DNA of 37,063 bases from Thermodesulfobacteriota bacterium (lineage in GTDB: Bacteria; Desulfobacterota; Desulfomonilia; UBA1062): NCBI GenBank assembly GCA_025454155.1, contig JALOOZ010000005.1:1-37063 (forward strand). Direction: 5' to 3'. A program made the position numbers and the translations under genes. The notes beneath the pieces were generated by a model, which worked only from the letters and a program-made list of their open reading frames with translations, searched no databases and had not been told where the DNA came from. Positions within the stretch are counted from its first letter, which is position 1, and every line of letters begins with the position of its first letter. This document shows positions 9,052 through 36,164 of the stretch, in pieces.

Positions 9052-9062
9052 AAGGAAATGGA

Positions 9063-15830: not shown

Positions 15831-16394
15831 TTACTGCTGTGAAGCTGCCGTATTCCCTGCCGGAGCCGCACTGCCGCCCCGGTAGCTCACCAGACGCTGG
15901 GTGATGCCAGCGGCCTTGACGGGCTCCATATAGGACAGGATGCTGCCCGCAATGTCCCCCTTCATGCCCAGAAAGACCTCCACAGCCACATCCGTATCGA
16001 GGTTGTTCATCAGGTTCGCTGCAGCCCCCGGTTTCATGGAGGAGTAGATCTTGACGAGGTGTTTGATCCTTTCGCCGCTCACGAATTTGTAGGAAGCCAG
16101 ATCGCTCTTGATGGCAGCCTCAACGTCTTCGAGGCGCTTGATCTTCCCCTGGACCTGCTGCTCCAGTTCTTTGAGCTCCATCTCGCGGGCCTTGAGACGT
16201 TCTTCCTTTTGGCGGAGGATCTCCAGCTGATCGGAGGTGTTCAGGCCGAAGGGCTGCTGGATCTGCTGCTGGGGCTGTTCCTTTGCCTGAGGCACGTTGT
16301 TGCCCGCCGCCACCGGGGTAGGTCTGACGGCCAGATAGATGCCGATAAAAGCCAGATTGATGATCACTAATCCAAGCAGAATCTTCGCCTTCAT
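15831..16394 (-). CDS. motE: MotE-like flagellar protein (MgtE N-domain, coiled coil)
   Basis: A 187-residue protein with an N-terminal hydrophobic segment (residues 5-23, signal anchor), a Gln/Pro-rich linker (about 30-50), a Lys/Glu coiled coil (about 58-98, LEILRQKEERLKAREMELK) and an MgtE-N-like domain (about 105-170, with HLVKIYSSMKPGAAANLMNNL). MotE homologues act as a periplasmic chaperone for the stator protein MotC/MotB-type, from knowledge of rhizobia. As the last gene of the flagellar operon, overlapping fliJ by ATGA, this assignment is supported by context. Confidence 0.75.
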   Translation of the reverse strand: MKAKILLGLVIINLAFIGIYLAVRPTPVAAGNNVPQAKEQPQQQIQQPFGLNTSDQLEILRQKEERLKAREMELKELEQQVQGKIKRLEDVEAAIKSDLASYKFVSGERIKHLVKIYSSMKPGAAANLMNNLDTDVAVEVFLGMKGDIAGSILSYMEPVKAAGITQRLVSYRGGSAAPAGNTAASQQ

Positions 16395-16831
16395 TTTCCA
16401 CCTCCGGCATTCATGATGGCGATCTCATCGAGGAACTTCATCTCTTTTTTCCTCTCGGCCTCTTCATGCCTGGCCTGATGGATCTCCTTGAGCCTGAGAA
16501 TCGCCTTGTATGCCCTCTTCGCCTTCAGGAGTTCCTCTCTCCTCTCGTCGAGCAGGCGTTGGGCCTTTTCCATGTTCTCATTGATGCGCTCGATACCTCC
16601 ATCCAGGTGATGGAGATAGTCGGAGTAGCTCTTCACCTCGCAAGAACTGAGGCCGCCTTTCATCCTGGTCATCATCTCGGCCCTGAGCACCTCTTTCCTC
16701 GCCATGACCTGCTCCTTCATGGCAGCCAACGCGGCCAGATGTCTCTGGGCATGGGAGAACGCCTGCTGGGCCATGTTTTCCTGGATCTTCCGCACATTCA
16801 GCAGGGTCTCGAACTTGTAATGAAAGGCCAT
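16391..16831 (-). CDS. fliJ: Flagellar export protein FliJ
   Basis: A 146-residue, almost fully helical, highly charged protein with the usual FliJ opening (FHYKFETLLNVRKIQENMAQQ) and a long coiled coil. FliJ is the stalk of the type III export ATPase and contacts FlhA to energise export of rod, hook and filament subunits. Position between fliI and motE is the normal one; its ATG directly follows the fliI stop. Sequence conservation in this family is low, so context carries much of the call. Confidence 0.85.
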   Translation of the reverse strand: MAFHYKFETLLNVRKIQENMAQQAFSHAQRHLAALAAMKEQVMARKEVLRAEMMTRMKGGLSSCEVKSYSDYLHHLDGGIERINENMEKAQRLLDERREELLKAKRAYKAILRLKEIHQARHEEAERKKEMKFLDEIAIMNAGGGK

Positions 16832-18166
16832 TTATGCTTTCCCCGCCGTCTTCTTTGACTCGGCCAGGGCGTTCAGCTGGGCCACCGAATCCTCCATGGT
16901 GGCCTTCTCGTTGATACCCTGCCTGAGGAAACGGTTGATGACATCGTTATGGCGGATGGCCGTATCGATCTCGGGGTTGTTTCCGGTGACGTATGCCCCT
17001 ATGTTGATGAGGTCTCTGGCCTCCTCGTAGACAGCCACCATGGACTGAACAGTCTGTGCCGCCTTGAGGTGCTTTTCCTCGACGATGTCGTTCATGACCC
17101 TGCTGACGCTGCGCAGGATGTCGATGGCAGGGTAGTGTGCCCTGGCGGCGAGATCCCTGGAGAGCACGATGTGGCCGTCCACAATGGAGCGGACCGTGTC
17201 GGCTACGGGTTCGCTCATGTCGTCACCCTCCACCAGAACCGTGTAGAGGCCGGTGATGCTCCCCCTTGACGAGGTGTTCCCGGCCCTTTCCAGGAGCTTG
17301 GGCATCTTGGCGAAGCAGGATGGGGTATATCCCTTGGTGGTGGGAGGTTCTCCCACCGCCAGGCCGACCTCCCGCATGGACATGGCGAAGCGGGTTATGG
17401 AGTCCATCATGAGCAGCACGTCAAGGCCCTGATTGCGGAAGTATTCCGCGATGGTCGTGGCAAGATATGCGCCCCTGATGCGGATGAGCGAAGGCTGGTC
17501 CGAAATGGCGGTCACAACGACGGACCTCTTGAGGCCGTCTTCGCCCAGGTCCCTCTCCAGGAACTCCTTGACCTCTCTGCCGCGCTCCCCGATGAGCGCG
17601 ATCACATTTACATCGGCCTTGGTGTGGCGTGCGATCATGCCGAGCAGCACGCTCTTGCCCACGCCGGAGCCCGACATGATGGCCATGCGCTGGCCCTTGC
17701 CGATGGTCAGGCAGCCGTTGATGGCCCTGATGCCGAGATCCAGGGGGGCATCGATGCGCCTCTTCTTCAAGGGATTGTAGGGGTTGCCGTAGAGCGGCAT
17801 CTCGTAATCCAGCACCAGGGGCCCCCTGCCGTCCAGGGGGTTTCCCATGCCGTCGATGACGCGGCCGAGCATGTCGTTGCCCACCCTGACCGTGGGCTGT
17901 GCTTTTCTGGCGATGATCATGCTGCCGGGGCCGATACCGCTCAGGTCTCCCAGCGGCATGAGCAGGACCCGCTTGTCGCGGAAACCCACAACTTCGGCCA
18001 TGATTGAGTCTTTCCGGGACCTGGAATAGATTTCGCACATGCCGCCCATGGAACTGCCGGGTCCATGGCCCTCCACCACCAGACCCACGATGTTGGTCAC
18101 CTTGCCCCTCACCTGGATGGGATCAAGCTCGCGCAGCGCCAGGATGTGTCTCCTCAGGTCGATCAT
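16832..18166 (-). CDS. fliI: Flagellum-specific export ATPase FliI
   Basis: A 444-residue AAA-type/F1-beta-like ATPase of the flagellar type III export apparatus. It shows Walker A GSGVGKS (166-172), the IGERGREVKEF motif, Walker B-type LDVLLMMDSITRFA, and the export-ATPase stretch GEPPTTKGYTPSCFAKMPKLLERAG. The open frame extends 79 codons upstream, but those overlap fliH in another frame; the ATG at 18166 overlaps the fliH stop (ATGA) and gives MIDLRRHI and a normal length. It assembles with FliH and FliJ at the cytoplasmic face of the basal body. Confidence 0.94.
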   Translation of the reverse strand: MIDLRRHILALRELDPIQVRGKVTNIVGLVVEGHGPGSSMGGMCEIYSRSRKDSIMAEVVGFRDKRVLLMPLGDLSGIGPGSMIIARKAQPTVRVGNDMLGRVIDGMGNPLDGRGPLVLDYEMPLYGNPYNPLKKRRIDAPLDLGIRAINGCLTIGKGQRMAIMSGSGVGKSVLLGMIARHTKADVNVIALIGERGREVKEFLERDLGEDGLKRSVVVTAISDQPSLIRIRGAYLATTIAEYFRNQGLDVLLMMDSITRFAMSMREVGLAVGEPPTTKGYTPSCFAKMPKLLERAGNTSSRGSITGLYTVLVEGDDMSEPVADTVRSIVDGHIVLSRDLAARAHYPAIDILRSVSRVMNDIVEEKHLKAAQTVQSMVAVYEEARDLINIGAYVTGNNPEIDTAIRHNDVINRFLRQGINEKATMEDSVAQLNALAESKKTAGKA

Positions 18167-18807
18167 TTCTCCAGCAGGACCTCTTTCATGTGATCGATCT
18201 GCGACCGTATGCTCGCATCGATTTCGCCGAATTCGGTGTGAATGACGACACCCCCGCGGTCCAGGGAACTGTCCTCGCTGAAGTGGAGATTCCCTTTTCC
18301 CGTCAGGTGCCTGGAAAGGATCCTCTCTATGTCGCGGATGTATTCGAAATCCGAAGGATGCAGCCTGATGCGGATCTCCTCGGTCTCGGCGAGGTGGTTG
18401 CATGCCTGCCTGATGGTGTCCAGGATGGTGTCGGGGGAAATCTGGATTTCCCGGTGGATGATCCTCTCGGCGATGAGGACCAGGATCTCTATGACCTGAT
18501 CCTGGTGCCTTTCCACGATGAGCTGCCGGATCTTCTTGAGCTCTTCAACGGCGTTGTTCAGGGTCCCGAGGAGGGGTTCGATCTTCTTGACCGCCATTTT
18601 CTGGCCCTGGGCCTGCCCCTGCTCAAGTCCCTTACGGTAGGCCTCCATCTCGATGGCTTCCTTCTCCGCCCGTGCCTTCTTCAGTATGGACTCGGCCTGG
18701 GCCTGGGCATCCTTGAGGCTCCCCTTGCCCTGCATCTCCTTGACACAGTACGGGGTGATGGAGCAGTCCCTCGGATCGTCGTCGCGGATGATTCTAGACG
18801 AGGACAT
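18163..18807 (-). CDS. fliH: Flagellar assembly protein FliH
   Basis: About 214 residues. FliH tethers and restrains the export ATPase FliI. The middle (about 35-80) is rich in Ala/Glu/Lys/Gln with the AYRKGLEQGQAQGQK glycine-repeat helix typical of FliH; the C-terminal part (about 110-210) resembles the V/F-type ATPase peripheral stalk subunit E. I choose the ATG at 18807 (MSSSRIIRDDD), which overlaps the fliG end by 14 bases and has AAGGG upstream, rather than a longer frame running deep into fliG. Confidence 0.88.
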   Translation of the reverse strand: MSSSRIIRDDDPRDCSITPYCVKEMQGKGSLKDAQAQAESILKKARAEKEAIEMEAYRKGLEQGQAQGQKMAVKKIEPLLGTLNNAVEELKKIRQLIVERHQDQVIEILVLIAERIIHREIQISPDTILDTIRQACNHLAETEEIRIRLHPSDFEYIRDIERILSRHLTGKGNLHFSEDSSLDRGGVVIHTEFGEIDASIRSQIDHMKEVLLEK

Positions 18808-19810
18808 CCTCTCCACCCTTTCCGCCGATGACGATCTTTCCGGCCGCTTCGAGCTTTCGGGCAACGCGGACGATGTTCTGCTGGGCGTTCTCCACATCCG
18901 AGAGCTTCACCGGGCCCATGGTCTCCATGTCTTCGAGGAGCATCTCCGAAGCGCGTGAAGACATGTTCTTGAGGATATGACCCTTGAGCGTCTCGCTGGA
19001 AGTCTTGAGCGCCAGGGACAGGTCTTCGTTGGTGATCTCCTTGAGGATGGTCTGGATTCCGCGGTTGTCGATGTTGATGAGGTCCTCGAAGACGAACATC
19101 TTCTGGCGGATGTTTTCCGCAAGGTCTGCATCGACCTCTTCCAGCGAAGCGAAGATGTTGTTCTCGGTGTTGTGGTCGAGCTGGTTCATGATCTCGGCGA
19201 CGGTTTCGATGCCGCCGAGCTTCTTGCTCTCCACGCTTCCCATGGCCTCGATCTCATTCTTCAGCACTTCGTCAACGTCCTCTATGACGCCCGAGGGCAC
19301 CATGCCGAGATTCGCGATGCGGAAGATGATCTCGGGCTGGAGCTTTTCGGGCATCTCCTTGATGATCTGTGCGACCTTCTGGTGGTCCAGGTGGGCCAGC
19401 ACCAGGGCGATGGTCTGGGGATGCTCCCCCTTGAGGTAATCCACGAGGATGGTCGGGTCTATGGAACGCAGCGATGAGAAGGCCGCCGTATCCATGGCCA
19501 GGGAGATGGAGTCCAGTATGGGTTTGGCCTTGTCCTGGCCCAGAGCCGAAACCAGGGCATCGCGCAGATACGTGATCCCCTTGCCCGTGACTCCGCTGAC
19601 TTCACCGCTCAGCTGTTCGAACTCATCCATGATGGTCCGAACCGTATCCACCGGGATGGTCACGTCTTCAAGCGTGGCCATGCGCCTTCCCAGGAGCATC
19701 ATCTCATGGTCGGTCAGCCCTTTGAACACGGCCTGGGTGAAGTCGTCGCCCATGGCCATGAGAAAGATCGCGGCCTTCTGGGGGCCGTCCACCTTCTTGA
19801 GTTTTCCCAT
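18794..19810 (-). CDS. fliG: Flagellar motor switch protein FliG
   Basis: A 338-residue rotor protein that links the MS ring (FliF) to the C ring and meets the stator. N-terminal domain starts VDGPQKAAIFLMAMGDD; the middle domain has the EHPQ motif (129-132); the C-terminal torque domain includes FVFEDLINIDNRGIQTIL and the charged ridge helix SSRASEMLLEDME. The start codon overlaps the fliF stop as TAATG. Complete and of normal length. Confidence 0.95.
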   Translation of the reverse strand: MGKLKKVDGPQKAAIFLMAMGDDFTQAVFKGLTDHEMMLLGRRMATLEDVTIPVDTVRTIMDEFEQLSGEVSGVTGKGITYLRDALVSALGQDKAKPILDSISLAMDTAAFSSLRSIDPTILVDYLKGEHPQTIALVLAHLDHQKVAQIIKEMPEKLQPEIIFRIANLGMVPSGVIEDVDEVLKNEIEAMGSVESKKLGGIETVAEIMNQLDHNTENNIFASLEEVDADLAENIRQKMFVFEDLINIDNRGIQTILKEITNEDLSLALKTSSETLKGHILKNMSSRASEMLLEDMETMGPVKLSDVENAQQNIVRVARKLEAAGKIVIGGKGGEDVLV

Positions 19811-21426
19811 TACGCACTCTCCTGCAGCCAGGATTTCACCACCGCCGTGGCGGTGTTCATATCATTCTTCGTAATGTGCTCGATGGTCTTGCGCTTCCCC
19901 TGGACCGCGCGCTTCATCTCATCACTCTTGGCCACCGCCTCGATCTGGGGATATTCCTCACCGCCGTCCAGGAGATCGCGCTCCTCCATGGGGAGGCCCC
20001 TCTCGTGCGTGTGGACGCGTTCCACCACCTTCACCGATTTCGTGAGCCATTTGAGCAGGGGCCTGATGACCAGGAAAAGGACCAGGATCACCATGGCGAA
20101 GAAGAGGGCATATTTCACCAGGGTCATGATCAGCTCCTTGTTTTTCTCCTTGGCGGAGATGGCGGCCAGATCGGTGTCATCCTGGGCAAAGGGCATGCAG
20201 GACACCGAGATCAGGTCTTCGCGGTCTGCGCTGAAGCCGACGGAATTCTTCACGGCATTCTCGATCTCCTTGAGCTCGGAAGCCTGGCGGGCCACGAACA
20301 TCTTGTTTCCGTCCTTGCCGGCCTTGTAGGTACCATCCACCACCACGGAGATCGTCAACTTTTTGACATCTCCCGGGGAATAGACATGCTCGGTCTGGTT
20401 TCTGCCGATCTCGTAGTTCCTGATGACGCTGCCCGCCCCTTTTTCTCCTGCGCCGGCAACGGCTTCGGGGCCCCCTCTGCCGGTGGGAAGGTTCGACGTC
20501 GTACCGGCCGCCCCCTGGGTTTCCTTTTCAGCACCGGCGTACTGGTTCTTGAGTTCTTCCGATCGGACCACATGGATCTCGGGGTCATACATGTCCTGGA
20601 CGCTCTTGACCAGGTCCATGTTCACATCCGCGCTCACCTTCACCACCGCGGCATTCGGGCCCACGATCTTTTCCAGGAGGTCTTGCGCCCTTTCCTGGAG
20701 CTGGTTTTCGATGGACCGCTTGAACTCGAGGCGGTCGCTGGCCATGATCACCGAATCGGAGTCCTTCTTGCCCTCGTAGAGGACCCTGCCTTTGATGTCC
20801 ATGATGGAGATATTCTCGGGGTCGAGCCCGCGTATGCTCTTCTCCACGAGGTACACGATGCCCTGGACCTTGGAGGGGCCCATCTGCATGCCGGGCCTTG
20901 TCTTGATGACGATGGAGGCCTTGGCGGGCTTCTCATCCTCTATGAAGATGCTTTCCTTGGGCATGGCGATGTGGACCCGGGCAAAATCAACCTCTTCCAG
21001 AGACATGATGGTGTTGGCAAGCTCGTTCTGGAGGGCCCTCTGGTAGTTGATCTTCTGCACGAACTCGGAGGTGGAGAAGTCGGTCTCGTCGAAGAGCGCG
21101 AAGCCCTTGCCAACCCCGCCCTTGGGGATGCCCTGGGCTGCCAGCGTCAGGCGTGTCTCGTAGACGTTCTTTTCGGGGATCATGATGGCCGATCCACCCT
21201 TGGTGAGCTTGTAGGGGGTGCGGGCGTCCTTGAGGTGCTGCACGACGAGCGAAGCATCCTGTTCGTTCAGGTCCGTGAAGAGATACTGGTACTTGGGAGC
21301 AGTGGCCCACATGAGGCTCACCACGACGACCGCAACGGCCATGGCGCTCACGGCCAGCAGGCCGAACCGCTGGCTCATGCTCATGGCGGTGAATTTTGCC
21401 GGGAGTTGTGTGAGGAGTTTCATCAT
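19810..21426 (-). CDS. fliF: Flagellar MS-ring protein FliF
   Basis: A 538-residue inner-membrane protein. Two transmembrane helices frame the periplasmic part: residues about 20-42 (FGLLAVSAMAVAVVVVSLMW) and about 448-468 (YALFFAMVILVLFLVIRPLL). Ring-building motifs include KYQYLFTDLNEQDA, TLAAQGIPKGG and FVQKINYQRALQNELANTI. The cytoplasmic tail ends in an acidic, FliG-binding segment. Tandem ATGs at 21426 and 21423 follow fliE by two bases. A Gly-rich insert with GTTSNLPTGRGG lies in the third periplasmic region, as usual for the family. Confidence 0.95.
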   Translation of the reverse strand: MMKLLTQLPAKFTAMSMSQRFGLLAVSAMAVAVVVVSLMWATAPKYQYLFTDLNEQDASLVVQHLKDARTPYKLTKGGSAIMIPEKNVYETRLTLAAQGIPKGGVGKGFALFDETDFSTSEFVQKINYQRALQNELANTIMSLEEVDFARVHIAMPKESIFIEDEKPAKASIVIKTRPGMQMGPSKVQGIVYLVEKSIRGLDPENISIMDIKGRVLYEGKKDSDSVIMASDRLEFKRSIENQLQERAQDLLEKIVGPNAAVVKVSADVNMDLVKSVQDMYDPEIHVVRSEELKNQYAGAEKETQGAAGTTSNLPTGRGGPEAVAGAGEKGAGSVIRNYEIGRNQTEHVYSPGDVKKLTISVVVDGTYKAGKDGNKMFVARQASELKEIENAVKNSVGFSADREDLISVSCMPFAQDDTDLAAISAKEKNKELIMTLVKYALFFAMVILVLFLVIRPLLKWLTKSVKVVERVHTHERGLPMEERDLLDGGEEYPQIEAVAKSDEMKRAVQGKRKTIEHITKNDMNTATAVVKSWLQESA

Positions 21427-21428
21427 GG

Positions 21429-21719
21429 CTATCTCAACCTGTTGAGTTCGTTGTAGCCTTCAATGAGCTTGTTGGTCATGGATACCATGAGCCGCAGCGT
21501 GATGTCAGCCTTCTGCATGGCGATCATGGCTTCGTGGATATTGGGTGCCTTTCCAGAGGAGAGGTCCGCTGCCGCCAGCTCCGATTCCTTGACCAGCTTG
21601 TTGGTGGAATCGATGGCCTCTTTCAGGGTATCCACGAAATCCAGCCCCTTGCCCGTGGTCTTTTCCTTGGCAGGACTCAGGGGATTCGTCAGGGTGAAAT
21701 CAGGCTTGTCGATGCGCAT
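21429..21719 (-). CDS. fliE: Flagellar hook-basal body protein FliE
   Basis: A 96-residue adaptor joining the MS ring to the rod. The C-terminal half has the family pattern APNIHEAMIAMQKADITLRL followed by the MTNKLIEGYNELNRLR tail. It lies two bases after flgC and directly before fliF, the classical order. Confidence 0.92.
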   Translation of the reverse strand: MRIDKPDFTLTNPLSPAKEKTTGKGLDFVDTLKEAIDSTNKLVKESELAAADLSSGKAPNIHEAMIAMQKADITLRLMVSMTNKLIEGYNELNRLR

Positions 21720-21721
21720 GC

Positions 21722-22123
21722 TTACCTCCCGATCTGCAGGGCCTTGAGGGCCATGTCCTTCTGGGACTTCACGGCAATGGTATTGGCCTCAAAGGCCCTT
21801 GTGGCGTTCATCATGTTCACCATCTCCTCCATGAGGTTCACGTTCGGCATGGTGACATAGCCCTGCTCGTCCGCATCGGGGCTGCTGGGGTCATAGATCC
21901 GCTCTCCCGGGGAGGGGTCCGTGGTTATGGCCTCCACGTCCACGCTGGCAAGCTGATCCTCGAAGGAGTTCTCTCGTAAGATCACGTCCCTGCGCAGATA
22001 GGGGCCGCCGTCTGCGGTCCGCGTCGTGCGTGCGTTGGCGATGTTGCTTGAGATGACGTTCATCGTGGTCCGCTGGGCCCGAAGGCCGCTGGCGCTGATG
22101 TCCATGGCGGTGAAAAGGTCCAT
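21722..22123 (-). CDS. flgC: Flagellar basal-body rod protein FlgC
   Basis: A 133-residue proximal rod protein. N-terminal rod motif AMDISASGLRAQRTTMNVIS-SNIAN and C-terminal MNATRAFEANTIAVKSQKDM form the paired helices of axial proteins. It is a little shorter than usual in the middle region. The ATG overlaps the flgB stop (TAATG). Confidence 0.93.
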   Translation of the reverse strand: MDLFTAMDISASGLRAQRTTMNVISSNIANARTTRTADGGPYLRRDVILRENSFEDQLASVDVEAITTDPSPGERIYDPSSPDADEQGYVTMPNVNLMEEMVNMMNATRAFEANTIAVKSQKDMALKALQIGR

Positions 22124-22506
22124 TACCTGATACCTCCTATGACGTTCCTCAGCCCTTCGAGCTTTCTTGTAATGATCTCAGCGGAAGCGCTGTAGAGGAG
22201 CTGATTCTGGTTGAGCTTCATCATTTCCCGGTCGATGTCCACGGTATTTGAGTCGTTGCCGATCCGGGAATAGGGGTCGGCCACGGTCTTGTACAGGCCC
22301 TGGCCGGGGGATTTCCTCAGGTGTCCGGGGGCCGTGGTTGTGAGCTTCAGCCTGGAGTCAAGCTCTTTCTCAAAAAGGGCCTCCTTGGCCTTGTAGCCGG
22401 GGGTGTCCACATTGGCGATGTTGCTGGATATGACCTCCTGTCGGTAGGTCCGGTAGGTCATGTGTTCCGTTGCTTCCTCGATTATTTTGCCGAAGATGTT
22501 GCCCAT
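22123..22506 (-). CDS. flgB: Flagellar basal-body rod protein FlgB
   Basis: A 127-residue proximal rod protein and first gene of the flgBC-fliEFGHIJ-motE operon. It carries QEVISSNIANVDTPGYKAK near the N-terminus and a C-terminal QNQLLYSASAEIITRKL helix. GAGGAGAG lies a few bases before the ATG. A sigma-54-type promoter is positioned so that the start point would fall about 14 bases upstream of the ATG. Confidence 0.94.
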   Translation of the reverse strand: MGNIFGKIIEEATEHMTYRTYRQEVISSNIANVDTPGYKAKEALFEKELDSRLKLTTTAPGHLRKSPGQGLYKTVADPYSRIGNDSNTVDIDREMMKLNQNQLLYSASAEIITRKLEGLRNVIGGIR

Positions 22507-22530
22507 ATGCGCTCTCCTCGAGGCTTAAGA

Positions 22531-22547
22531 AGCAATTGTCATACCAA
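22531..22547 (-). promoter_or_regulatory. Sigma-54-type promoter of the flagellar operon
   Basis: The minus strand reads TTGGTATGACAATTGCT, matching YTGGCACGrN3TTGCW with only two C-to-T changes in the -24 half. GG (22545-22544) and GC (22533-22532) have the exact 12-base offset. The predicted start point is near 22520. The gene just upstream encodes a sigma-54 activator, the expected regulator. Confidence 0.75.
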
Positions 22548-22568
22548 GGGGAAAAGTGCCGGGAAGAG

Positions 22569-23903
22569 CTAGGATTCTTCAGGGTCAGGGCCGTTCGCGA
22601 CCACGGACTCATCGTCAGAAATTTGACCACCTCTGGAGTATTCGTTGAGTTTGTTCCGCAGCGTCCGGATACTGATGCCGAGGAGCGTGGCCGCCCTGGT
22701 CCTGTTTCCCTCGACCTTCCGCAAGGTTGAGAATATAAGGCTCTTTTCCATGTCGTGAATGGTGGTTCCCGTCGGGGGAACCGCGCCGGAGTCCGCTGAA
22801 GCCGTGTTTCCCGCCACGACATGCTCGGACGAGATGGTTTCCCCTTCGTTCAGGATCATGGCGCGTTCGATCACGTTTTCCATCTCCCGCACATTCCCCG
22901 GCCAGTGGTATTTCAACAGGGCATCTTTTGCCCCTGCGCTGAGCACTTTTTCCTGCATGCCTTCGCGGGCCGCGATCTTCGTGATGAAATGGGCCGCCAG
23001 GGGCAGGATGTCTTCCCTTCTCTCCCTCAGGGGAGGGACCTTGACGGGGATCACGTTCAGGCGGTAAAAGAGGTCGTTCCTGAACCGTCCCGCCCTGATC
23101 TCCTCTTCGATGTCCCTGTTGGTGGTGGAGATGACGCGGAAGTCCACCTTGATGGGCGTCTTTCCCCCGACGCGGTCTATCTGCCGTTCCTGCAGGACCC
23201 GCAGGAGCTTTGCCTGGAGGCCTGAGCCGATCTCGGTCACCTCGTCGAGCAGGATGGTGCCGCCGTCGGCCTGTTCGAACCTGCCTACCCTGGTGGCATA
23301 TGCGCCGGTGAATGCGCCCTTCTCGTAGCCGAAGAGCTCGCTCTCCAGGAGGGTCTCGGGGATGGCCGCGAGGTTGATGCCCACGTAGGGCCCGCTTCTC
23401 CTCTTGCTCAGGGCATGGATGTTCCTGGCGATGACCTCCTTGCCGGTCCCCGACTCCCCCATGATGAGTACAGGGGCCTGGGTGGGGGCAACCTTGCGGA
23501 TGATATCCACGATGCGGCCCATTGCGGGATCAGCCACCACGAAGGGGGATCCGTTTTCCTTTCCCGTGCCTGTCTTGGGTGCAGAGAGCGCCCCGATGAC
23601 ACGCACGATCTCCTCGGCCCGGAAGGGCTTCTTCAGATAATGGGCCGCCCCCGCCTTCAGGCATGCCGAGCCGTCCGCAGTACCGATGCCTATGATCTCG
23701 ATGGAGTCGTAGACCTGCTTGGTCCCCTCCACCACGTCCACGAACTCATCGGATATGATGGCAATGGAATGTGATTTCGGGTCTATGACCTCCAGGAACT
23801 TGTCCTTGCTGGTGAAGGGACAGGGGGATTCCCCCGTCTCGGCTATGAGCTCGGCGAGGATGCTGACGATCTCCTTGTCAGTGTCCAGTATGGCGATGCC
23901 CAT
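22569..23903 (-). CDS. Sigma-54-dependent transcriptional activator, FlbD/FleQ type
   Basis: A 444-residue enhancer-binding protein. The N-terminal receiver-like domain (1-105) is atypical: of the acidic pair only Asp7 is clear (LDTD), the strand before the usual phospho-Asp reads IAIISD so Asp52 is offset by one, while the conserved KP (HYLKKPF) remains. The AAA+ domain has GESGTGKE (149-156) and the sigma-54-contacting GAFTGA (196-201), with LLDEV as Walker B. A Fis-type helix-turn-helix ends the protein (NRTRAATLLGISIRTLRNKL). Its position immediately before the sigma-54-driven flagellar operon suggests it activates flgB. It follows the AMIN-TPR-like gene by five bases. Confidence 0.88.
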   Translation of the reverse strand: MGIAILDTDKEIVSILAELIAETGESPCPFTSKDKFLEVIDPKSHSIAIISDEFVDVVEGTKQVYDSIEIIGIGTADGSACLKAGAAHYLKKPFRAEEIVRVIGALSAPKTGTGKENGSPFVVADPAMGRIVDIIRKVAPTQAPVLIMGESGTGKEVIARNIHALSKRRSGPYVGINLAAIPETLLESELFGYEKGAFTGAYATRVGRFEQADGGTILLDEVTEIGSGLQAKLLRVLQERQIDRVGGKTPIKVDFRVISTTNRDIEEEIRAGRFRNDLFYRLNVIPVKVPPLRERREDILPLAAHFITKIAAREGMQEKVLSAGAKDALLKYHWPGNVREMENVIERAMILNEGETISSEHVVAGNTASADSGAVPPTGTTIHDMEKSLIFSTLRKVEGNRTRAATLLGISIRTLRNKLNEYSRGGQISDDESVVANGPDPEES

Positions 23904-23908
23904 CTCCC

Positions 23909-26605
23909 CTACTTCCTCCCCGTGCCCGTTTTCATGGCGTCATAACCCTGCAGATCCCTGTTCAGCTCCATCACATCGGAGGAGACCCGTGCAGCGGATA
24001 CGAGGACCGGGTCCTTGCTGACCCGTATGATGTGGGTGAGGAGCTCCCTTGCCTTCGGGTTGTCCCCCTGGTCGTGGGCTATGTCTGCGAGATAGTACAT
24101 GGCCCATGGGGCATGGGACGACTTGGGGTAGGCATCCAGAAGGGTCTGGAAGAGAGAAGAAGCCCTCGTGAAGTCTCCGGCCTTTTTCGCCTGGCCCGCC
24201 CGAAGATAGAGAGCCTCCTCGATGATGGGAGAGACTCGTTCCGGATGGAATGCAATGATTCTGTCCAGGGCCGTCTGCTCCTGCTGGGGCATGCCAAGCC
24301 TCCGGTAGGCATCCGTAAGGTAAGACAACGAATGAAGTGCCAGTGGGCTTCCGCTGGCGGCCGAGGCTTCGAGATAGGGCAGGGCTGCACTGAGGCTTCC
24401 GAGCCTGTACAGCACCTCGCCACGCCTGTCGTTCATGATCTGGGCATCCTTTCCCTTTGGGTAGGTGCTCAGGTATATGGTGTTCCAGATGAGGGCTTCC
24501 TGGTACTTTCCGCGTTTGACATCGATGGTGAAGAGCAGATAGAAGGCCTGTTCCTTGTAGATGGAATCTCCCCTGGTGGATGATTCCAGCATGGACCGTG
24601 CCTGCTCCACCTGGCCGATGCGGTTCAGGGCGTCGCCCATGATGAAGAGCGTGGCGCTGTCCTGCATTTCTTTTATGAAGTTCGGCTTGTAGCGCGTATA
24701 GATGGCGTAGATACGGTCATAACGGGAATCGCGGTAGAGGATGCGGACCCGTTCGATGATGCTCCTGATGGCCTCAACCTGGGCATAGTGGTGGATCGAG
24801 TCACCCTTGGTCGTATTCTTCCAGACCTCATGGTAGGTTTCCAGCGCCTTCTCCCAGTCACCATGCTTCGCATAGGCCTGAGCTATCCTCACTTTCACCA
24901 GGGAGGCCAGCGATTTGTCCTTGAATTCCTCCGAGGCCTTCAGGGTTTCATAGATATCCATGACCTCGTTGAAAGCCCGGTCAGGAAGTTTTCCCCTCTC
25001 GTCCGTGTTCTTTTCGATGATGATGCGGGCCGTCTTGAGCTTGGCAATGACGAGGCTGTCACCCTTGGCACCCAGGTTCTCCACCTGCGAGAAGACAACG
25101 ATGGCCCTGTCCTTCTCCCCTATCTGGTAGAGGCTGTCTCCCAGCATGAGGAGATATTTCTGTCTGCCGGGAGCACCTGAAAGGTTGAAGGCCATGGTGA
25201 GGTAGTCCCTGGCCTGGGGGAAGTCATTCATCCTGAAGGCCGCGTCGCCCATGCGTGCGAAGATGCCGGGATCCTCCCCGGGATAGTCGGGATCCGCGGC
25301 AAGAACCTGCCGGTACAGATCCAGGGCCTTTGGATGATCGTTCAACCCGAGGTAGGTGTCCGCAAGGGTGGCCGAGTACAGGGCCTTGAGATCTTCCTGC
25401 AGGCCTTTGCCGCCGAGGCCCATCATCAGCCTCTTGGCGGCGGCATAGGCATCCTGATAGGAACCGGCACGGTTCAGGATGTCCATCTCCCGGATGGATG
25501 CCTCTGCCTTTATGTCGTCGTTCCCGGAGGCCTTCAGCCTGCTGATAGTCGAGGAAGCCTCCGCGGGTAAGCCTGCCCGGATAAGCATGGAACAGTACTC
25601 CAGCTGGAGCCGTTCCTGCTCTGGGCTTTCTGGCATTTCCCGGATGGCCTCGTTCATCAGGGACAGGGACTTGTTCGACTGTTCCCCCATCTTGTACGGG
25701 AAGGCAACGGACCAGTAGGACCTTGCCAGGAGGATCTTCTCGCCAGGGCTCAGCGATCGTATCTGCGGCTCCAGGGTCACAATGACCCCTGCCCTGTTCC
25801 CTGCATCAAAGAGGCTTCGTGCAGTGAGTTCCCTCGCCTCCGGTGATTGCTGGCCCGAGGTGCTCATGACAAAGGTGATCCTGCTTTCACCCCTGTCAGC
25901 CCTGGTGCTCTCCAGGATAAAAGGCTCTTTCAGGGATAGGGTGAGGGTAGTACCGTTGGCCATCTTCATGAGGCCGACAAACTGAAGCTGCGGGACACCT
26001 TCGAGGAGCCTCTGAATGTCCGTACAGGGGAACTCAACTGGAAAACGGATGAAGATCCTCCCGCCCTTGGTGGCACGGACTTCCGGCAGGGGGCCCTCTT
26101 TGAGGACCATGGCAACGCTGAAGCGGGCCTTGCCGGGGATGATCTCGAAATGTCTGACGGGACAGGCGTCTTCGGTTTCCCGGGCCGTCTTCCCGGAGAT
26201 GTCGATGACGAAGCGTGACGGGAACTGTTTGAACGAAGCCTTGTAGGTGAAAGGCTGTTTCAGGGCAATGACTGCCTTGATGCCGTCGAAGGAGAGGGAC
26301 TGGATCATGAACCGGTCCTGGATCGTCTGTGGCTCGGCGACAGTGTGGGGAAAATTGACGATGAGTGTCTGGTTTTGTTCTGCCAGATCCGGGCTGATGC
26401 TGTCATCTGCCTTCAGATGGAAGACGACCCGTGTGCCGTCGCCGGAGCCTCCTACTAGGATGTCTCCTGCGCTCGCCGGGCCTGCAGCGACGAGGATCAT
26501 GCACATGGTCTGCAGGGCATACCCGAGTGCATTCCTCAGCATGAACAGTAAGGGTCTGTAATTCTTCACCGCAGCATGGAAATACAACTTCCATGCCACA
26601 TTCAT
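23909..26605 (-). CDS. Large TPR-repeat envelope protein with N-terminal AMIN-like domain
   Basis: Up to 898 residues. A hydrophobic signal segment ends at GPASAG (about residue 47); an internal ATG at 26542 would give a normal-length signal peptide (MLRNALGYALQTMCMILVAA), so either start is possible, and neither has a good ribosome site. The next 220 residues are beta-rich and contain AMIN-like phrases (TRVVFHLKAD; FPSRFVIDISGKT). From about residue 265 onward the protein is a helical TPR array, with clear units such as ALDLYRQVLAADPDYPG and KALETYHEVWKNT. It should be periplasmic. Lying directly before the flagellar activator gene, it may serve motility or polar envelope organisation; that is inference. 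Confidence 0.72.
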   Translation of the reverse strand: MNVAWKLYFHAAVKNYRPLLFMLRNALGYALQTMCMILVAAGPASAGDILVGGSGDGTRVVFHLKADDSISPDLAEQNQTLIVNFPHTVAEPQTIQDRFMIQSLSFDGIKAVIALKQPFTYKASFKQFPSRFVIDISGKTARETEDACPVRHFEIIPGKARFSVAMVLKEGPLPEVRATKGGRIFIRFPVEFPCTDIQRLLEGVPQLQFVGLMKMANGTTLTLSLKEPFILESTRADRGESRITFVMSTSGQQSPEARELTARSLFDAGNRAGVIVTLEPQIRSLSPGEKILLARSYWSVAFPYKMGEQSNKSLSLMNEAIREMPESPEQERLQLEYCSMLIRAGLPAEASSTISRLKASGNDDIKAEASIREMDILNRAGSYQDAYAAAKRLMMGLGGKGLQEDLKALYSATLADTYLGLNDHPKALDLYRQVLAADPDYPGEDPGIFARMGDAAFRMNDFPQARDYLTMAFNLSGAPGRQKYLLMLGDSLYQIGEKDRAIVVFSQVENLGAKGDSLVIAKLKTARIIIEKNTDERGKLPDRAFNEVMDIYETLKASEEFKDKSLASLVKVRIAQAYAKHGDWEKALETYHEVWKNTTKGDSIHHYAQVEAIRSIIERVRILYRDSRYDRIYAIYTRYKPNFIKEMQDSATLFIMGDALNRIGQVEQARSMLESSTRGDSIYKEQAFYLLFTIDVKRGKYQEALIWNTIYLSTYPKGKDAQIMNDRRGEVLYRLGSLSAALPYLEASAASGSPLALHSLSYLTDAYRRLGMPQQEQTALDRIIAFHPERVSPIIEEALYLRAGQAKKAGDFTRASSLFQTLLDAYPKSSHAPWAMYYLADIAHDQGDNPKARELLTHIIRVSKDPVLVSAARVSSDVMELNRDLQGYDAMKTGTGRK

Positions 26606-26627
26606 GAAAAGGGTTAGGCCGAGGGAG

Positions 26628-26643
26628 AAAGGAAGCTTCCTTT
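26628..26643. repeat. Perfect 16-base palindrome between two regulator-linked genes
   Basis: AAAGGAAGCTTCCTTT is perfectly self-complementary and lies in the 47-base gap between the NtrC-type regulator and the TPR-protein gene. Without a loop larger than four bases and with no T-run it is a weak terminator candidate; it could equally be a dimer-binding operator. Confidence 0.4.
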
Positions 26644-26652
26644 TGTGCCCCG

Positions 26653-28053
26653 CTACATGTTGGTTTCGGTGGGCTTTTCGAGCTTCTGCTTCTTGATCTT
26701 CTCCACCAGTGTCGTCCGGTTCACGTGGAGGAGCTTGGCTGCCCGGTTCTTGACCCAGTTGCTCTTGTTCAGTGCCTGGATGATGATGCTGCGTTCGAAT
26801 TCGTTGACCGCAGTGGAAAGGTCAATGCCCGCTTCGGGCAGATCGATGAGCGGAACAGCGGATGCCGTCCCCATAGCCCCGATAAGGACCTTCTCAGGAA
26901 GGTCATCCGCTTCTATGACTGGAGAGTCGCACAAGACCACCATGCGCTCCACCAGATTCTCCAGTTCCCGGACATTGCCCGGCCAGCGGTAATGCATGAG
27001 GGCTGACACGGCCTTCTTGCTGAACTCGGCCTTTTTCGGCGATTTCCCGTTGTTGAATTTATTCAGAAAATGCTTGACCAGGAGCGGAATGTCCTCGATC
27101 CTCTCGCGCAGGGGCGGCAGGTGTAACGGGATGACATTGAGCCGGTAGTAGAGGTCTTCACGGAACCTGCCGTTGGTCACTTCTTCCTCGAGATTCCTGT
27201 TGGTTGCTGCGATGATCCTGAGGTCGGCCCGTATGGACTTGACTCCGCCGACGCGTTCGAATTCGCGCTCCTGGATGACACGGAGCAGCTTGACCTGGAG
27301 GTTCGGGCTCATCTCGGATATCTCATCCAGGAAGATGCTGCCGCTGCTGGCCAGCTCGAACCGGCCTATCCTCGTCCTGAATGCACCGGTGAACGCACCT
27401 TTCTCGTGGCCGAAAAGCTCGCTCTCGAGCAGTTCCTCAGGGATTGCGCCGCAGTTGACCGGGACGAAGGGATTGACCGACCTGGACGAGTTGAAATGCA
27501 GGGCCCGGGCGACGAGCTCCTTGCCTGTCCCGGATTCACCCAGGATCAAGACCGTGGAGTCCGTGGATGCCACCTTGTCGATGAGACTGAAGATCTTCTG
27601 CATCTTTTCAGAGGTACCCACGATATTCTCGAACTTGTACTTGGCCTTGAGCTGCTGCTTGAGGTAGAGGTTCTCCTCCTGCAGCGCGAGGTGGTCCAGG
27701 GCTTTTTTCACCACGACCTTGATCTCGTCCGCCTTGAAGGGCTTGGTGATATAGTCGAAGGCCCCGAGTTTCATGGCATCCACGGCAGTCTTGACGGACC
27801 CGTATCCGGTGTAGAGGATGCCGATGGTGTTGAGCTTGTTGTCTATGAGGTGCTGTATGACGCCCAGCCCGTCGAGCTCCGGCATCTTGAGATCGGTGAG
27901 GACGATGTGAAACGAGTCCTGCGAGAGCCTGGCGACGGCGTCTTTCCCGTTGGCCGCAGTCGCTACGGTATAACCCTCCTCGGAGAGGACCTCAGAGAGG
28001 TATTCCCTGTTCGGGGCCTCGTCGTCTACAATGAGTATGGAGTGGTTTCCCAT
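26653..28053 (-). CDS. NtrC-family sigma-54-dependent response regulator
   Basis: A 466-residue response regulator from ATG 28053. The receiver is canonical: acidic pair in IVDDE (Asp10, Asp11), phospho-acceptor Asp54 in LTDLKMPELDG, and Lys104 in ITKPF. The AAA+ domain has GESGTGKE (172-179) and GAFTGA (219-224), and a C-terminal Fis-type helix-turn-helix (NRAAKLLHVNRTTLVEKIKK). A longer frame begins at GTG 28080, but a consensus promoter overlaps that codon, so the ATG is preferred. No partner histidine kinase is in the window. Together with the nearby flagellar genes a role in motility control is plausible but unproven. Confidence 0.92.
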   Translation of the reverse strand: MGNHSILIVDDEAPNREYLSEVLSEEGYTVATAANGKDAVARLSQDSFHIVLTDLKMPELDGLGVIQHLIDNKLNTIGILYTGYGSVKTAVDAMKLGAFDYITKPFKADEIKVVVKKALDHLALQEENLYLKQQLKAKYKFENIVGTSEKMQKIFSLIDKVASTDSTVLILGESGTGKELVARALHFNSSRSVNPFVPVNCGAIPEELLESELFGHEKGAFTGAFRTRIGRFELASSGSIFLDEISEMSPNLQVKLLRVIQEREFERVGGVKSIRADLRIIAATNRNLEEEVTNGRFREDLYYRLNVIPLHLPPLRERIEDIPLLVKHFLNKFNNGKSPKKAEFSKKAVSALMHYRWPGNVRELENLVERMVVLCDSPVIEADDLPEKVLIGAMGTASAVPLIDLPEAGIDLSTAVNEFERSIIIQALNKSNWVKNRAAKLLHVNRTTLVEKIKKQKLEKPTETNM

Positions 28054-28068
28054 AAATTCTTGAGGTGC

Positions 28069-28097
28069 ATTATACCGCACGATGTCAATTGCGTCAA
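28069..28097 (-). promoter_or_regulatory. Near-consensus sigma-70 promoter of the NtrC-type regulator
   Basis: Minus strand TTGACG (28097-28092), a 17-base spacer, then a perfect TATAAT (28074-28069). The predicted start point (about 28062) lies only about nine bases before the ATG at 28053, so the mRNA would have almost no leader and no Shine-Dalgarno site. Confidence 0.7.
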
Positions 28098-32450: not shown

Positions 32451-33188
32451 ATGGAGACAGTGGAACATCCTCAACGCATGCAGGCTATGGACAGGGACTT
32501 CGTCCTCCGCCTGCCCATGTTCGAAGGGCCGCTGGACCTGCTGCTTTACCTCATCGAGAAGAACCGGTTCACCCTGCAGGACCTGGAGGTGAGCCCCATC
32601 ATCGACCAGTACCTTGCCTACATCGAACGGGTACGCCTGCTCGATATATCTCTGGCAGGTGAATTCCTCGACATGGCGTCCTACCTCATCTGGCTCAAGT
32701 CGCGCATACTGCTGCCCGAGGCGTTCACCCACAAGGACGAGGAAGGGAAGAACCCCGTTGAGGAACTCAGGGAGATGCTGATGGCCTACCAGGCAATCAA
32801 GGCGGCCTCCAGGGAGCTCGGCATGAGGCCCATGCTCTACTGGGACACCTTCCCCAAGGGGTCTGTCCAGGAGGAGCGTGAGGTCTCCAGGACAAGCCTG
32901 GGTCCTCTGATGGAGGCCGTCGCCGCCATCCGTGTCCGGACCAGGCAGCTCGTCGTGAACATCACGCCCATGCGGTTCAGCATTCAGGAGATCATGGCCC
33001 GTATCCAGGGTCTGTTCGCGAGCCGGAAGAAAATAGCCCTGAGAGAGGCCGCCCCGAGCGGTGAAAAGACGGAACTCATAGGTGCCTTCATGGCGGCCCT
33101 GGAGATGTCGCGGCTCAGCATCTTGAAGCTTGTCCAGAGGGGTCTGTTCTCGACCATCTATCTGCTGAGGAGGACGGACCGGCCATGA
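32451..33188 (+). CDS. scpA: Segregation and condensation protein A
   Basis: A 245-residue kleisin that joins SMC heads and ScpB to compact the chromosome. The family opening FEGPLDLLLYLIEKNRFTLQDLEV is present in two halves (FEGPLDLLLYLIEKN at about 25-39), then DISLAGEFLDMASYLIWLKSR, and a C-terminal winged-helix that ends SILKLVQRGLFSTIYLLR. AGGA lies five bases before the ATG. Several internal Met codons near residue 10-13 could also serve as starts. Confidence 0.93.
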   Translation: METVEHPQRMQAMDRDFVLRLPMFEGPLDLLLYLIEKNRFTLQDLEVSPIIDQYLAYIERVRLLDISLAGEFLDMASYLIWLKSRILLPEAFTHKDEEGKNPVEELREMLMAYQAIKAASRELGMRPMLYWDTFPKGSVQEEREVSRTSLGPLMEAVAAIRVRTRQLVVNITPMRFSIQEIMARIQGLFASRKKIALREAAPSGEKTELIGAFMAALEMSRLSILKLVQRGLFSTIYLLRRTDRP

Positions 33189-33224: not shown

Positions 33225-33767
33225 GTGGCTAAAAGGGAGATCCTCGAGGCGCTCATCTTTTCCGCCAGCGGAGCCGTGGCACTCAAGGATATTCTGAGGA
33301 TCCTGCCAGATTCGTCGCCCGAAGAGATTCAAGGATACGTGGAGGAACTGAACGTCCTGTATGAGTCATCCCATCGGAGTTTCAGGATCCACCGGGCCGG
33401 CGGCGGTTACCTTTTCATGACTCAGCCGGAGTATGCCCCCTCCATACGTCAACTCGTGAGCCCGGTGAGATTGACCGGGGCGGCCCTGGAGGTTCTTGCC
33501 GTCGTCGCGTACAAGGGGCCCTGTTCCAAACAGACCATCGACGGCATCCGGGGGGTGGACTCAACCTCAAGCCTCAAGCAGCTCATAAAGCACCAGCTCA
33601 TCGACATCAAGCCAGGCAAACCCATGCTGTACTACACCTCTGATAAATTCCTTGAGGTCTTCGGGCTGACCTCCCTGTCCGAACTGCCCGATATCGCCCA
33701 GTTCGAGGAGGTCTTCGGCATGCCCGAGGTTCCGGCAGTGGCCCCGGGACATGAGGATGGGCTATGA
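33225..33767 (+). CDS. scpB: Segregation and condensation protein B
   Basis: A 180-residue winged-helix dimer and partner of ScpA in the SMC complex. Motifs include EILEALIFSASGAVALKDI and RLTGAALEVLAVVAYKGPCSKQTIDGIRGVDS (the conserved helix-strand block, seen around residues 83-114). It uses a GTG start with GGAGG nine bases upstream. Its stop overlaps by six bases the stop of the convergent PilZ-methyltransferase gene. Confidence 0.92.
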   Translation: MAKREILEALIFSASGAVALKDILRILPDSSPEEIQGYVEELNVLYESSHRSFRIHRAGGGYLFMTQPEYAPSIRQLVSPVRLTGAALEVLAVVAYKGPCSKQTIDGIRGVDSTSSLKQLIKHQLIDIKPGKPMLYYTSDKFLEVFGLTSLSELPDIAQFEEVFGMPEVPAVAPGHEDGL

Positions 33768-35216
33768 TGGCTTTTCGATATTGAGGAAGAGGTTGATACC
33801 CTCGGGTTCCTTTTCCACGATCATGGAGGGTTTGCCCGGCAGGTCTGATGCCAGCCGCTTCATCTCATCCTCGCTGCGGTGTATCAGGAACCACTCGGCA
33901 CCATATTCCATGATGAATCTCTGGGGATTATAGAGCCCGAAGTTGCCTATGGCCAGCAGGCCCCCCGGCTTCAGGAAGCTGTAGAGCTTGTGGATGAGAC
34001 GGTTCGATGCCCTTTCCGACAGGTAGTCGAAGAGCCCCGCAGTGTAAACGAAGTCGGCCTCGAGGTAGAGATTCTTTCCGGCCTCCTTTTCCACGATGAG
34101 CCGTTTGATGTTATCCTGCTCGAAGGATACCCGCACCTGAGGATTGTCCCTTACGAGCGGTTCGATCCGGGAGCGGGCATCATTCAGGGCGAGACTGTCC
34201 TGGTCCATGGCGATGAACTCGATGGTGTAGGGAAGCGTCTTCCCCTCGAATCCCTTGATAAGATCCGAGAATTCGTGGGCCGGACCACAGGCGACGCTTA
34301 TGATCTTGAGGTTCCTGGACACGGTGTTGTTTGTCAGGATTTCACGGAGCTTTCTGCAAAGGTAGGTCCTGCGGTTTCTCACAGCCCGGGCCGCGGTCCC
34401 CTCACAGTCGACCTTGTTCAGGGCCTGGGCGAATAGGGTATCCCCCTCAAAGGCATTGCGGTAAATGATGTTCATCATCTCGTAGTCACCCGCATATCCC
34501 AGGGGCTTGGTTATGCTCCTGTGGAACAGGGCCGACTTGGCCAGGTATTCGTTCAGCCGCTTCTGGAAGAACTCCCGATGTATGAAATGCTGCTTGGGAT
34601 CTGTGAAACGGCTGATGATGGTTGTGAAGTGGTCGTAGTAGCGGTTCAGCTCATCAAAGAGCGCATCGAAGGCGAGTCCCTGCAACGTCTCCAGGAGTGT
34701 CTCCTGGAGCGACTCATCCTCCTGCTTGATGACCTCCAGGTCCTGGGAGAGTCTCTCGGAAAACCCTTCGAGGATGAAGTTGAGGTGCGAGGTGAGGTTG
34801 ACGAACTCGGGGTCGAGGTTCTCCTCGATGGCCATGGACTGTACAAAATCCAGGAAGTCGTTTTGAAGCTTGGTTATCTTGTCAGCCCGCACAACGGAGT
34901 AGACATCCATGTCCTGGTCGTTGTACGAACAGCCGATGCAGGACAGGATCTGGCCGTTCTTCTCCTCGTCCTGTATATGGATGATGGTGGCACTGGACAG
35001 ATGGACTTCACTGTTGAAGAAGAAGAATCTGAGATCACCGATGATGTCGCCTATGTGCAGAAGCAGGCTGCCGTCTTCGAGATAGAATGAGACGCCACTC
35101 CGCGAGTAATCCTTGACCCGGCAGGTATGCTCAATTTTCTGGAAATCATGAAAGCGCACTACCTTGTCGGAGTCGCTTGACTCCACAGAATATCTCAGGT
35201 CACGCTTGAGCCTCAC
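33762..35216 (-). CDS. PilZ-like domain fused to a SAM-dependent methyltransferase (PhcB-like)
   Basis: A 484-residue cytoplasmic fusion. Residues 1-105 resemble PilZ: DYSRSG (36-41) is a canonical D-x-S-x-x-G, while the arginine motif is degenerate (KRDLR at 4-8). A helical linker follows (about 110-205). Residues 230-290 carry KPLGYAGDYEMMN and RAVRNRRTYL, and 305-480 form a class I methyltransferase with motif I SVACGPAHE (307-315), FIAMDQD (334-340) and DFVYTAGLFDYLS. From memory this set resembles proteins annotated as 3-hydroxypalmitate methyl ester (PhcB-like) synthases. GTG start at 35216 with AGGAG six bases upstream. A sigma-28-like promoter precedes it. Inference: a methyltransferase gated by c-di-GMP. 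Confidence 0.75.
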   Translation of the reverse strand: MRLKRDLRYSVESSDSDKVVRFHDFQKIEHTCRVKDYSRSGVSFYLEDGSLLLHIGDIIGDLRFFFFNSEVHLSSATIIHIQDEEKNGQILSCIGCSYNDQDMDVYSVVRADKITKLQNDFLDFVQSMAIEENLDPEFVNLTSHLNFILEGFSERLSQDLEVIKQEDESLQETLLETLQGLAFDALFDELNRYYDHFTTIISRFTDPKQHFIHREFFQKRLNEYLAKSALFHRSITKPLGYAGDYEMMNIIYRNAFEGDTLFAQALNKVDCEGTAARAVRNRRTYLCRKLREILTNNTVSRNLKIISVACGPAHEFSDLIKGFEGKTLPYTIEFIAMDQDSLALNDARSRIEPLVRDNPQVRVSFEQDNIKRLIVEKEAGKNLYLEADFVYTAGLFDYLSERASNRLIHKLYSFLKPGGLLAIGNFGLYNPQRFIMEYGAEWFLIHRSEDEMKRLASDLPGKPSMIVEKEPEGINLFLNIEKPS

Positions 35217-35274
35217 TCACGTCTCCTCTTCACTGCAAGGTTGTCACTGGATTTGATACTCCAGTACGAATAGC

Positions 35275-35302
35275 ATTACGGCATTGGCCCGGGAAAACTT
35301 TA
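35275..35302 (-). promoter_or_regulatory. Candidate sigma-28 (FliA-type flagellar) promoter
   Basis: Minus strand TAAAGTTT (35302-35295) is a perfect match to the flagellar sigma-28 -35 element. GCCGTAAT (35282-35275) matches GCCG of the -10 element GCCGATAA. The spacer is 12 bases, one longer than the usual 11. It stands about 60 bases before the GTG of the PilZ-methyltransferase gene. Confidence 0.45.
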
Positions 35303-35331: not shown

Positions 35332-35730
35332 TCAGGACTGGGCGCAATCGCTCATGTCCCCACCCAGCTTTTCAAGGGCGTGGGGTAGAGCGGGGGCTAT
35401 CGCTTCGAGGCATTCCCTGGCCGCCTTGGGGCTTCCAGGCAGGTTGATGATGAGGGTGCGTTTCCTGGCACCTACGACGGCCCTGGAGATCATGGCATGG
35501 GGTGTCTTTTTCAGGCTCTCGGCGCGCATCACCTCCTCCATGCCCGGTACCCGCCTGTCAATGACCGACAGGGTGGCCTCAGGGGTGACATCCCGGGGCG
35601 AGAGCCCTGTGCCGCCCGTTGTCACGATAAGGTCTAGGCCTCGTTCGTCACACCAACTCGCCAGCCGCTCCTTGATGAGATCGATGTCGTCGGGCTTGTC
35701 GCTCAGGGTGAGGACGCCAGCCTTCATCAT
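35332..35730 (-). CDS. Mog/MoaB-family molybdopterin protein with an internal in-frame gap
   Basis: Mog/MoaB proteins adenylate molybdopterin before metal insertion. The open frame from ATG 35730 gives 132 residues; the family usually has about 160 or more. After [12 protein letters not shown] (1-12) the sequence jumps to [11 protein letters not shown], skipping roughly 33 residues that in relatives hold the first helix, the D(T/K)(S/G)G motif and a beta strand. The remainder is intact, with [18 protein letters not shown] and [18 protein letters not shown]. The start overlaps the upstream stop by ATGA. It may be non-functional, or the gap may be an assembly fault; see the findings. Confidence 0.75.
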
Positions 35731-36164
35731 CGCTTTACAACCTTGAGCCTGCCCTCGGCCGCGATCACAACGGGGCGTGGTACCCCCTTGCTCTTGGCCA
35801 GCAGGCTCAAATCCCTCTGATTGAGGTAGGACACCTGAGCCATCGCTATGGAGAGCGGGGTTTTGGGATTGTTCACGAGTGCGAGCCTGATCTGGTAATT
35901 CCTCAGCCACTCCCGGTTCATGCCGATCTCTTTGAGGACATCCTCGGTCACCTGCCGATTGCTGGCTATGGCGATGATCTCGCTTTCGGTGATCTTCGGC
36001 GAGTTGATCACTGCAAGCTGAACAAGCTTGTTGGCGTCACGGATCAGGATCGAACGGGCCTCCTTGGAGGCCTTGCGTGCAAGATCGAGCTTTTCCGAGA
36101 CCGACATGGTCTGTATCTTCTGGAAGAGGCCCCTGATGGACGCGTCGGAATCGTTATTTTCCAT
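35727..36164 (-). CDS. Conserved-type helical repeat hypothetical protein
   Basis: A 145-residue, mainly helical cytoplasmic protein. Two related units are visible, [20 protein letters not shown] (about 53-72) and [19 protein letters not shown] (about 96-114), suggesting a leucine-rich-variant or HEAT-like repeat fold. I recall similar short repeat proteins in deltaproteobacteria but no function. ATG 36164 lies 11 bases inside the end of the EF-G-like gene and its stop overlaps the Mog start, so the three genes are probably one transcript. Confidence 0.6.

Follow-up and report, generated by a model that had tools for sequence, protein, structure and literature searches.

A PilZ domain and a methyltransferase in one reading frame

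Could cyclic di-GMP gate a methyltransferase from within the flagellar regulon? The question is raised by a locus in a Thermodesulfobacteriota genome (G000, about 86% complete), where an initial annotation had read a PilZ domain and a PhcB-like class I methyltransferase in a single frame behind a sigma-28-like box. The stretch of DNA analysed, here called the window, comprises 37,063 nucleotides of contig JALOOZ010000005.1.

The reading frame spans 33762-35216 on the minus strand and, from a GTG start, encodes a protein of 484 amino acids in which PilZ and methyltransferase do occur together; the motifs quoted earlier (DYSRSG, KPLGYAGDYEMMN and SVACGPAHE) were all found in it as given. A ribosome-binding site (aagaggagac, 35221-35230, minus strand) can be read in the sequence ahead of the GTG. 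The start-codon call is supported by the orthologs, which begin at the same residue (VRLKRD, LRLRRD or MRLRRD), and by the aagaggag immediately upstream. A model of the full-length protein (AlphaFold, 13 sequences, mean pLDDT 86.8) places strands at residues 18-98, followed by long helices at about residues 105-201, a helical cap and a Rossmann-type methyltransferase. On the minus strand, the PilZ domain (residues 1-105) occupies 34902-35216, the helices that link it to the methyltransferase 34614-34901, and the methyltransferase core (residues 229-484) 33765-34532. The core contains KPLGYAGD (residues 237-244, 34485-34508), corresponding to the family signature KPxGYxGD, and the SAM-binding motif SVACGPAHE (residues 307-315, 34272-34298). 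This anatomy, as well as the promoter and the family of the PilZ-methyltransferase, is established by computation.

For residues 29-105 of the window protein, the Pfam PilZ score of 22.8 bits only just exceeds the curated cut-off of 22.5. With relatives included the assignment is firm, as Pfam PilZ matches 11/11 N-termini in alignment A3 (best E 2.4e-8). A structure search with the whole model returned a list filled by methyltransferases aligned over residues 229-484, leaving the PilZ part unprobed, and this part was therefore folded separately. Residues 1-135 alone (pLDDT 83) form a six-stranded barrel resembling solved PilZ structures, including MrkH with c-di-GMP (5kgo, Z 13.4) and the PilZ domain of E. 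coli YcgR (5y6g, Z 13.3, rmsd 3.2, 117 residues aligned). A search of solved structures by sequence, using the PilZ alignment, yielded nothing useful. The PilZ fold proposed for residues 1-105 is nonetheless borne out by both the family-wide Pfam matches and the similarity to YcgR.

With YcgR and other PilZ proteins linked to the flagellum, the window protein shares the PilZ fold and a c-di-GMP/motility context. Unlike YcgR, which acts on the motor and carries an N-domain of its own, it has an enzyme as its output. PilZ control of a SAM methyltransferase, as proposed here, has its closest known parallel in the flagellar chemotaxis of Pseudomonas aeruginosa, where MapZ, a PilZ protein, together with c-di-GMP inhibits the methyltransferase CheR1 (PMC6370697). 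However, MapZ acts in trans on a chemoreceptor methyltransferase, while the window PilZ domain is joined in cis, within one chain, to a methyltransferase from a different family.

A fixed locus within one order

The PilZ-methyltransferase is encoded in 17 of the 24 genomes of the order, 16 times at full length and once as two contig fragments. The other 15 full-length orthologs share 50-81% identity with the window protein. Across 297 genomes of the phylum, only the family of the window protein gave full-length matches, all other matches starting at residue 132 or later. Eleven full-length loci are present in genome_contigs, all in MAGs named Deltaproteobacteria or Syntrophaceae. The gene order EF-G, small protein, mogA, methyltransferase and, convergently, scpB, scpA and trpS is the same in 15/15 loci as far as the contig ends allow, which indicates that the gene is inherited as a fixed locus. 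In the window, the upstream neighbour is mogA/moaB-like (MoCF_biosynth; 35332-35781, minus strand), with the convergent scpB at 33225-33767 and scpA at 32451-33188, both on the plus strand.

FliA was detected above the cut-off in 23 of the 24 genomes of the order, G000 included, and flagellin in 21. The gene is absent from seven genomes, six of which have flagellin. With flagellin in nearly every genome of the order, its co-occurrence with the gene is uninformative. A genome of the same family that is 97% complete (G003) has FliA above the cut-off and lacks both a flagellin match and the PilZ-methyltransferase. The window also contains a flagellar cluster (15831-28080, minus strand) with fliJ, fliI, fliH, fliG, fliF, flgC and flgB as identified by Pfam; two sigma-54 activators, one with a receiver domain, are part of this cluster, with a large TPR protein between.

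A sigma-28-type promoter conserved among orthologs

The box noted upstream of the gene is present: a sigma-28 (FliA)-type promoter, TAAAGTTT-N12-GCCGTAAT (TAAA-N16-GCCG), lies at 35275-35302 on the minus strand, 58 nt ahead of the start codon. It is the sole match in the window at up to 3 mismatches, with a chance mean of 0.06 and 6 of 100 shuffles containing such a site. The half-sites are conserved upstream of the 16 orthologs, with column counts of T16 A15 A16 A14 G15 at -35 and C14 C16 G16 A13 T14 at -10. Most spacer columns are kept in 4-10 of the 16 sequences, against 13-16 for the half-sites, and this conservation is, on comparison of the sequences, stronger evidence than the single-site statistic. 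Upstream of the 16 orthologs the first half-site is TAAAG, with TAATG or TAATA in its place in two and TCAAG in another. After 15 bases comes NCCGAT, replaced by GTCGAT in two sequences and by GCCGT in the genus of the window protein.

Flagellin genes within the order have promoters of the type TAAAG-N14-GCCGATAA, from which the -10 half-site of the window copy, GCCGTAAT, deviates. A matrix built solely from eight flagellin sites was run on the methyltransferase upstream regions. In 12 of 16 orthologs no more than 3% of shuffles reached the score of the box, and in 15 of 16 the top site had a spacing of 16. The window copy is borderline (22/400 shuffles, 0/42 control windows), as is L015 (21/400 and 1/42), while L017 and L018 are not significant. 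Genome-wide, TAAAG-N15/16-CCGATA occurs seven times in G000, compared with once for the reversed control. Among the genes preceded by such sites are flgM, flgL, an EAL-HDOD gene and a pilB-type ATPase with MshEN. The flgL site has the same spacing, 16, as that of the PilZ-methyltransferase. The similarity to the flagellin promoters of the order and the like sites before flgM and flgL agree with the flagellar regulon membership suggested at the outset, and FliA-driven expression of the PilZ-methyltransferase is well supported by these sequence comparisons. It was also considered that the gene could be part of the mogA transcript. Read-through is possible, but the conserved box favours a promoter of its own.

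The sigma-28-like sites before the pilB-type ATPase and before the EAL-HDOD gene are found in L102 and L103 (G000:C9 and G000:C19). Their positions suggest that the FliA regulon extends to pili and c-di-GMP turnover.

c-di-GMP motifs of the PilZ domain

The RxxxR motif is a mark of c-di-GMP-binding PilZ domains rather than of the fold. The second motif, [D/N]xSxxG, occurs in all family members (DYSRSG at 35094-35111, minus strand, in the window protein; N replaces D in L018). At the RxxxR position the window protein has KRDLR (35193-35207, minus strand), with Lys for the first Arg, and so departs from the canonical motif. The arginine motif had been called degenerate, which is confirmed for this protein, but 10 of the 16 orthologs have the canonical form (RR-x-x-R). 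Lys occupies the first position in g2 as well as in the window genus, and L018 has Glu there; Arg5, Arg8, Ser38 and Gly41 are invariant across the family. On these motifs, c-di-GMP binding by the family as a whole is plausible, while in the window genus, given the Lys, it may be weak or lost. We count c-di-GMP as available because G000 encodes nine GGDEF proteins, one of them within the window, where it adjoins a second PilZ protein. The two genes lie at 8068-9893 on the plus strand, GGDEF first, and the second PilZ protein has its PilZ domain at residues 186-265, in a YcgR-like layout.

The replacements at the first RxxxR position are what one would expect if the PilZ domain of the window genus no longer bound c-di-GMP and acted as a protein-interaction or dimerisation module, leaving a PhcB-like enzyme controlled only by FliA-dependent expression. 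In a PhcB-like protein of Paraburkholderia graminis (see below), NLQRNS takes the place of DxSxxG, and nucleotide binding may be lost there too. The four invariant residues and the predominance of the canonical motif among the orthologs argue the other way, and we hold this reading to be rather unlikely.

A methyltransferase module with varied input domains

Pfam returned only weak generic methyltransferase matches for residues 306-425 of the window protein. The nearest solved methyltransferase structure is 3ocj (Z 20.4 over 249 residues, range 134-484). Among 38 relatives, KPxGYxGD, R282, G311, D338, D397-Y398, W442 and R447 are invariant. One clade (99/99) carries a cNMP-binding N-terminus, identified by Pfam in L034 and L043 and alike by eye in L035-L042 and L044. 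These proteins, from other members of the phylum, share the module and an N-terminal input of second-messenger type with the window protein, but their domain is a CRP-like cyclic-nucleotide domain instead of PilZ. Such methyltransferases occur in many genomes of the phylum, and we know of no published name or account of them. A second PilZ-methyltransferase fusion is found in L046 and L049, with RxxxR and NxSxxG-type motifs. In L033 (1492-2886, minus strand) an RsbW-type HATPase_c_2 domain is fused to the module, and L045 and L047 have no N-terminal input domain. At L095:9652-12789, on an Enterobacter ludwigii conjugative plasmid, a relative forms the C-terminal domain of a PKS module. The N-termini of L013 and L014 were considered as further PilZ fusions and not counted, having no Pfam match and low hhalign scores.

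The main split of the tree (99/98) separates the cNMP, second PilZ, PKS and two stand-alone forms from the window family, the PhcB-like and HATPase forms, L013/L014 and the cyanobacterial and Deinococcus forms; with its long branches, the order of branching within the PhcB side is uncertain. As the two PilZ groups lie on opposite sides of this split, PilZ thus appears to have been joined to the module at least twice, with the caution that long branches call for. By its domain combinations, the methyltransferase is a module taking varied inputs: cNMP-binding, PilZ, HATPase or none.

Kinship with PhcB

In Ralstonia solanacearum the genes are ordered phcBSRQ, and PhcB is essential for the synthesis of 3-OH PAME/MAME (PMC6989110). 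The best plasmid relative of the window protein is the P. graminis PhcB-like protein (about 31-33% identity, E 7e-34), whose gene stands ahead of one histidine kinase gene and two response regulator genes, as in phcBSRQ. Among relatives whose context is known, this protein is the nearest. The methyltransferase homology extends over about 290 amino acids and includes a shared KPLGYAGDY motif, and the two proteins are of similar length (468 and 484 amino acids). At 31% identity and on the same side of the 99/98 split, this relative upholds the PhcB-like assignment made initially.

The P. graminis protein also has an N-terminal extension of similar size, colinear with the PilZ domain of the window family. 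While the N-terminus of the window protein is clearly PilZ, that of P. graminis has no Pfam match. Aligned with the PilZ profile of the window family, it runs gapless over 63 residues with an hhalign score of 20.6, reached by 0/200 shuffles and 1/120 natural N-termini. The region (L096:5416-5760) looks like a degenerate PilZ barrel, with NLQRNS at the DxSxxG position and Arg22 inside. In PhcB, the R22C substitution, outside the methyltransferase domain, lowers responsiveness to cell density, and R22 is conserved in Ralstonia, Cupriavidus and Paraburkholderia (PMC6989110); the P. graminis protein likewise has Arg at position 22. The alignment weakly suggests that the PhcB N-terminus is a degenerate PilZ barrel, and is not proof of it.

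Where histidine kinase and response regulator genes follow phcB in phcBSRQ, the window locus has none and has a FliA-type promoter instead. No histidine kinase, response regulator, phcS/phcR partner or receptor-candidate gene was found at the loci of the family, the neighbours being mogA and scpB. Among 31 kinase matches in G000, about 86% complete, all were to the kinase part and none was a phcS homologue with an N-terminal sensor region. In Pseudanabaena, too, a relative has one histidine kinase and one response regulator as neighbours.

The putative substrate and signal role of the PilZ-methyltransferase are suggested by kinship. The breadth of the family, one member being a polyketide synthase C-terminal domain, and the absence of phcS/phcR partner genes from the locus would also suit a PilZ-gated small-molecule methyltransferase with a non-fatty-acid substrate, for example a polyketide, a sugar or a cell-envelope building block. 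The PKS member, however, lies across the main split from the window family, and we find such a substrate quite unlikely. A PilZ-switched protein methyltransferase of the flagellar/chemotaxis system, CheR-like in its target, is improbable: the FliA regulon, the MapZ-CheR1 precedent and a weak CheR similarity (Pfam E 4.3e-4 over 39 residues; 5ftw, E 6.7e-8 with the profile) speak for it, but CheR membership was rejected at 20.2 bits against a curated cut-off of 27, many small-molecule methyltransferases were ranked by the structure search, and of the family members one is the C-terminal domain of a PKS and another is encoded in a phc-type operon.

A proposed mechanism and its implications

We favour a FliA-transcribed PhcB-type enzyme with its activity set by its own PilZ domain, and assign this reading a probability of about 0.4. 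FliA would transcribe the PilZ-methyltransferase from the conserved sigma-28 promoter, and the PilZ domain, or a partner recruited by it, would report the c-di-GMP level. The c-di-GMP state could alter how the helical region packs against the SAM pocket, so that methylation would start or stop when the cell changes between swimming and sessile life. Methylation would take place on the carboxylate of a small hydrophobic molecule, for which a 3-hydroxy fatty acid is the most likely candidate, and the product would be a methyl ester able to diffuse. Flagellar expression combined with c-di-GMP gating would limit production to one particular stage of the switch between motility and sessile life. 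As related methyltransferases carry cNMP-binding or HATPase domains, the logic of the input domains favours gating by PilZ. Several observations count against the favoured reading: the Lys (Glu in L018) at the first RxxxR position, the low identity to the PhcB-like protein and the uncertain branching around it, the failure to find in G000 a phcS with its sensor region or, at the locus, any sensor gene, the six flagellin-bearing genomes among the seven that lack the gene, and the divergent -10 half-site of the window copy. A bolder version, which we regard as unlikely, holds that c-di-GMP gates a methyl-ester signal synthase in cis within the flagellar regulon and that PhcB descends from such a PilZ-fused enzyme, keeping a degenerate N-terminal PilZ barrel that holds the activity-lowering R22C site.

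No described system of this layout had been known at the outset, and none was found: the open-access literature on PilZ with methyltransferase or PhcB, subscription papers lying outside this scope, describes no such fusion. If the favoured reading is true, one protein under flagellar control would couple the motile-sessile second messenger to the making of a methylated molecule that may be diffusible. The PhcB-type methyltransferase is, moreover, a module to which various second-messenger domains have been joined (PilZ at least twice, cNMP-binding and HATPase), and a testable idea emerges for the role of the unexplained PhcB N-terminus. The layout thereby makes a direct connection of c-di-GMP with the flagellar regulon and PhcB-type chemistry testable.
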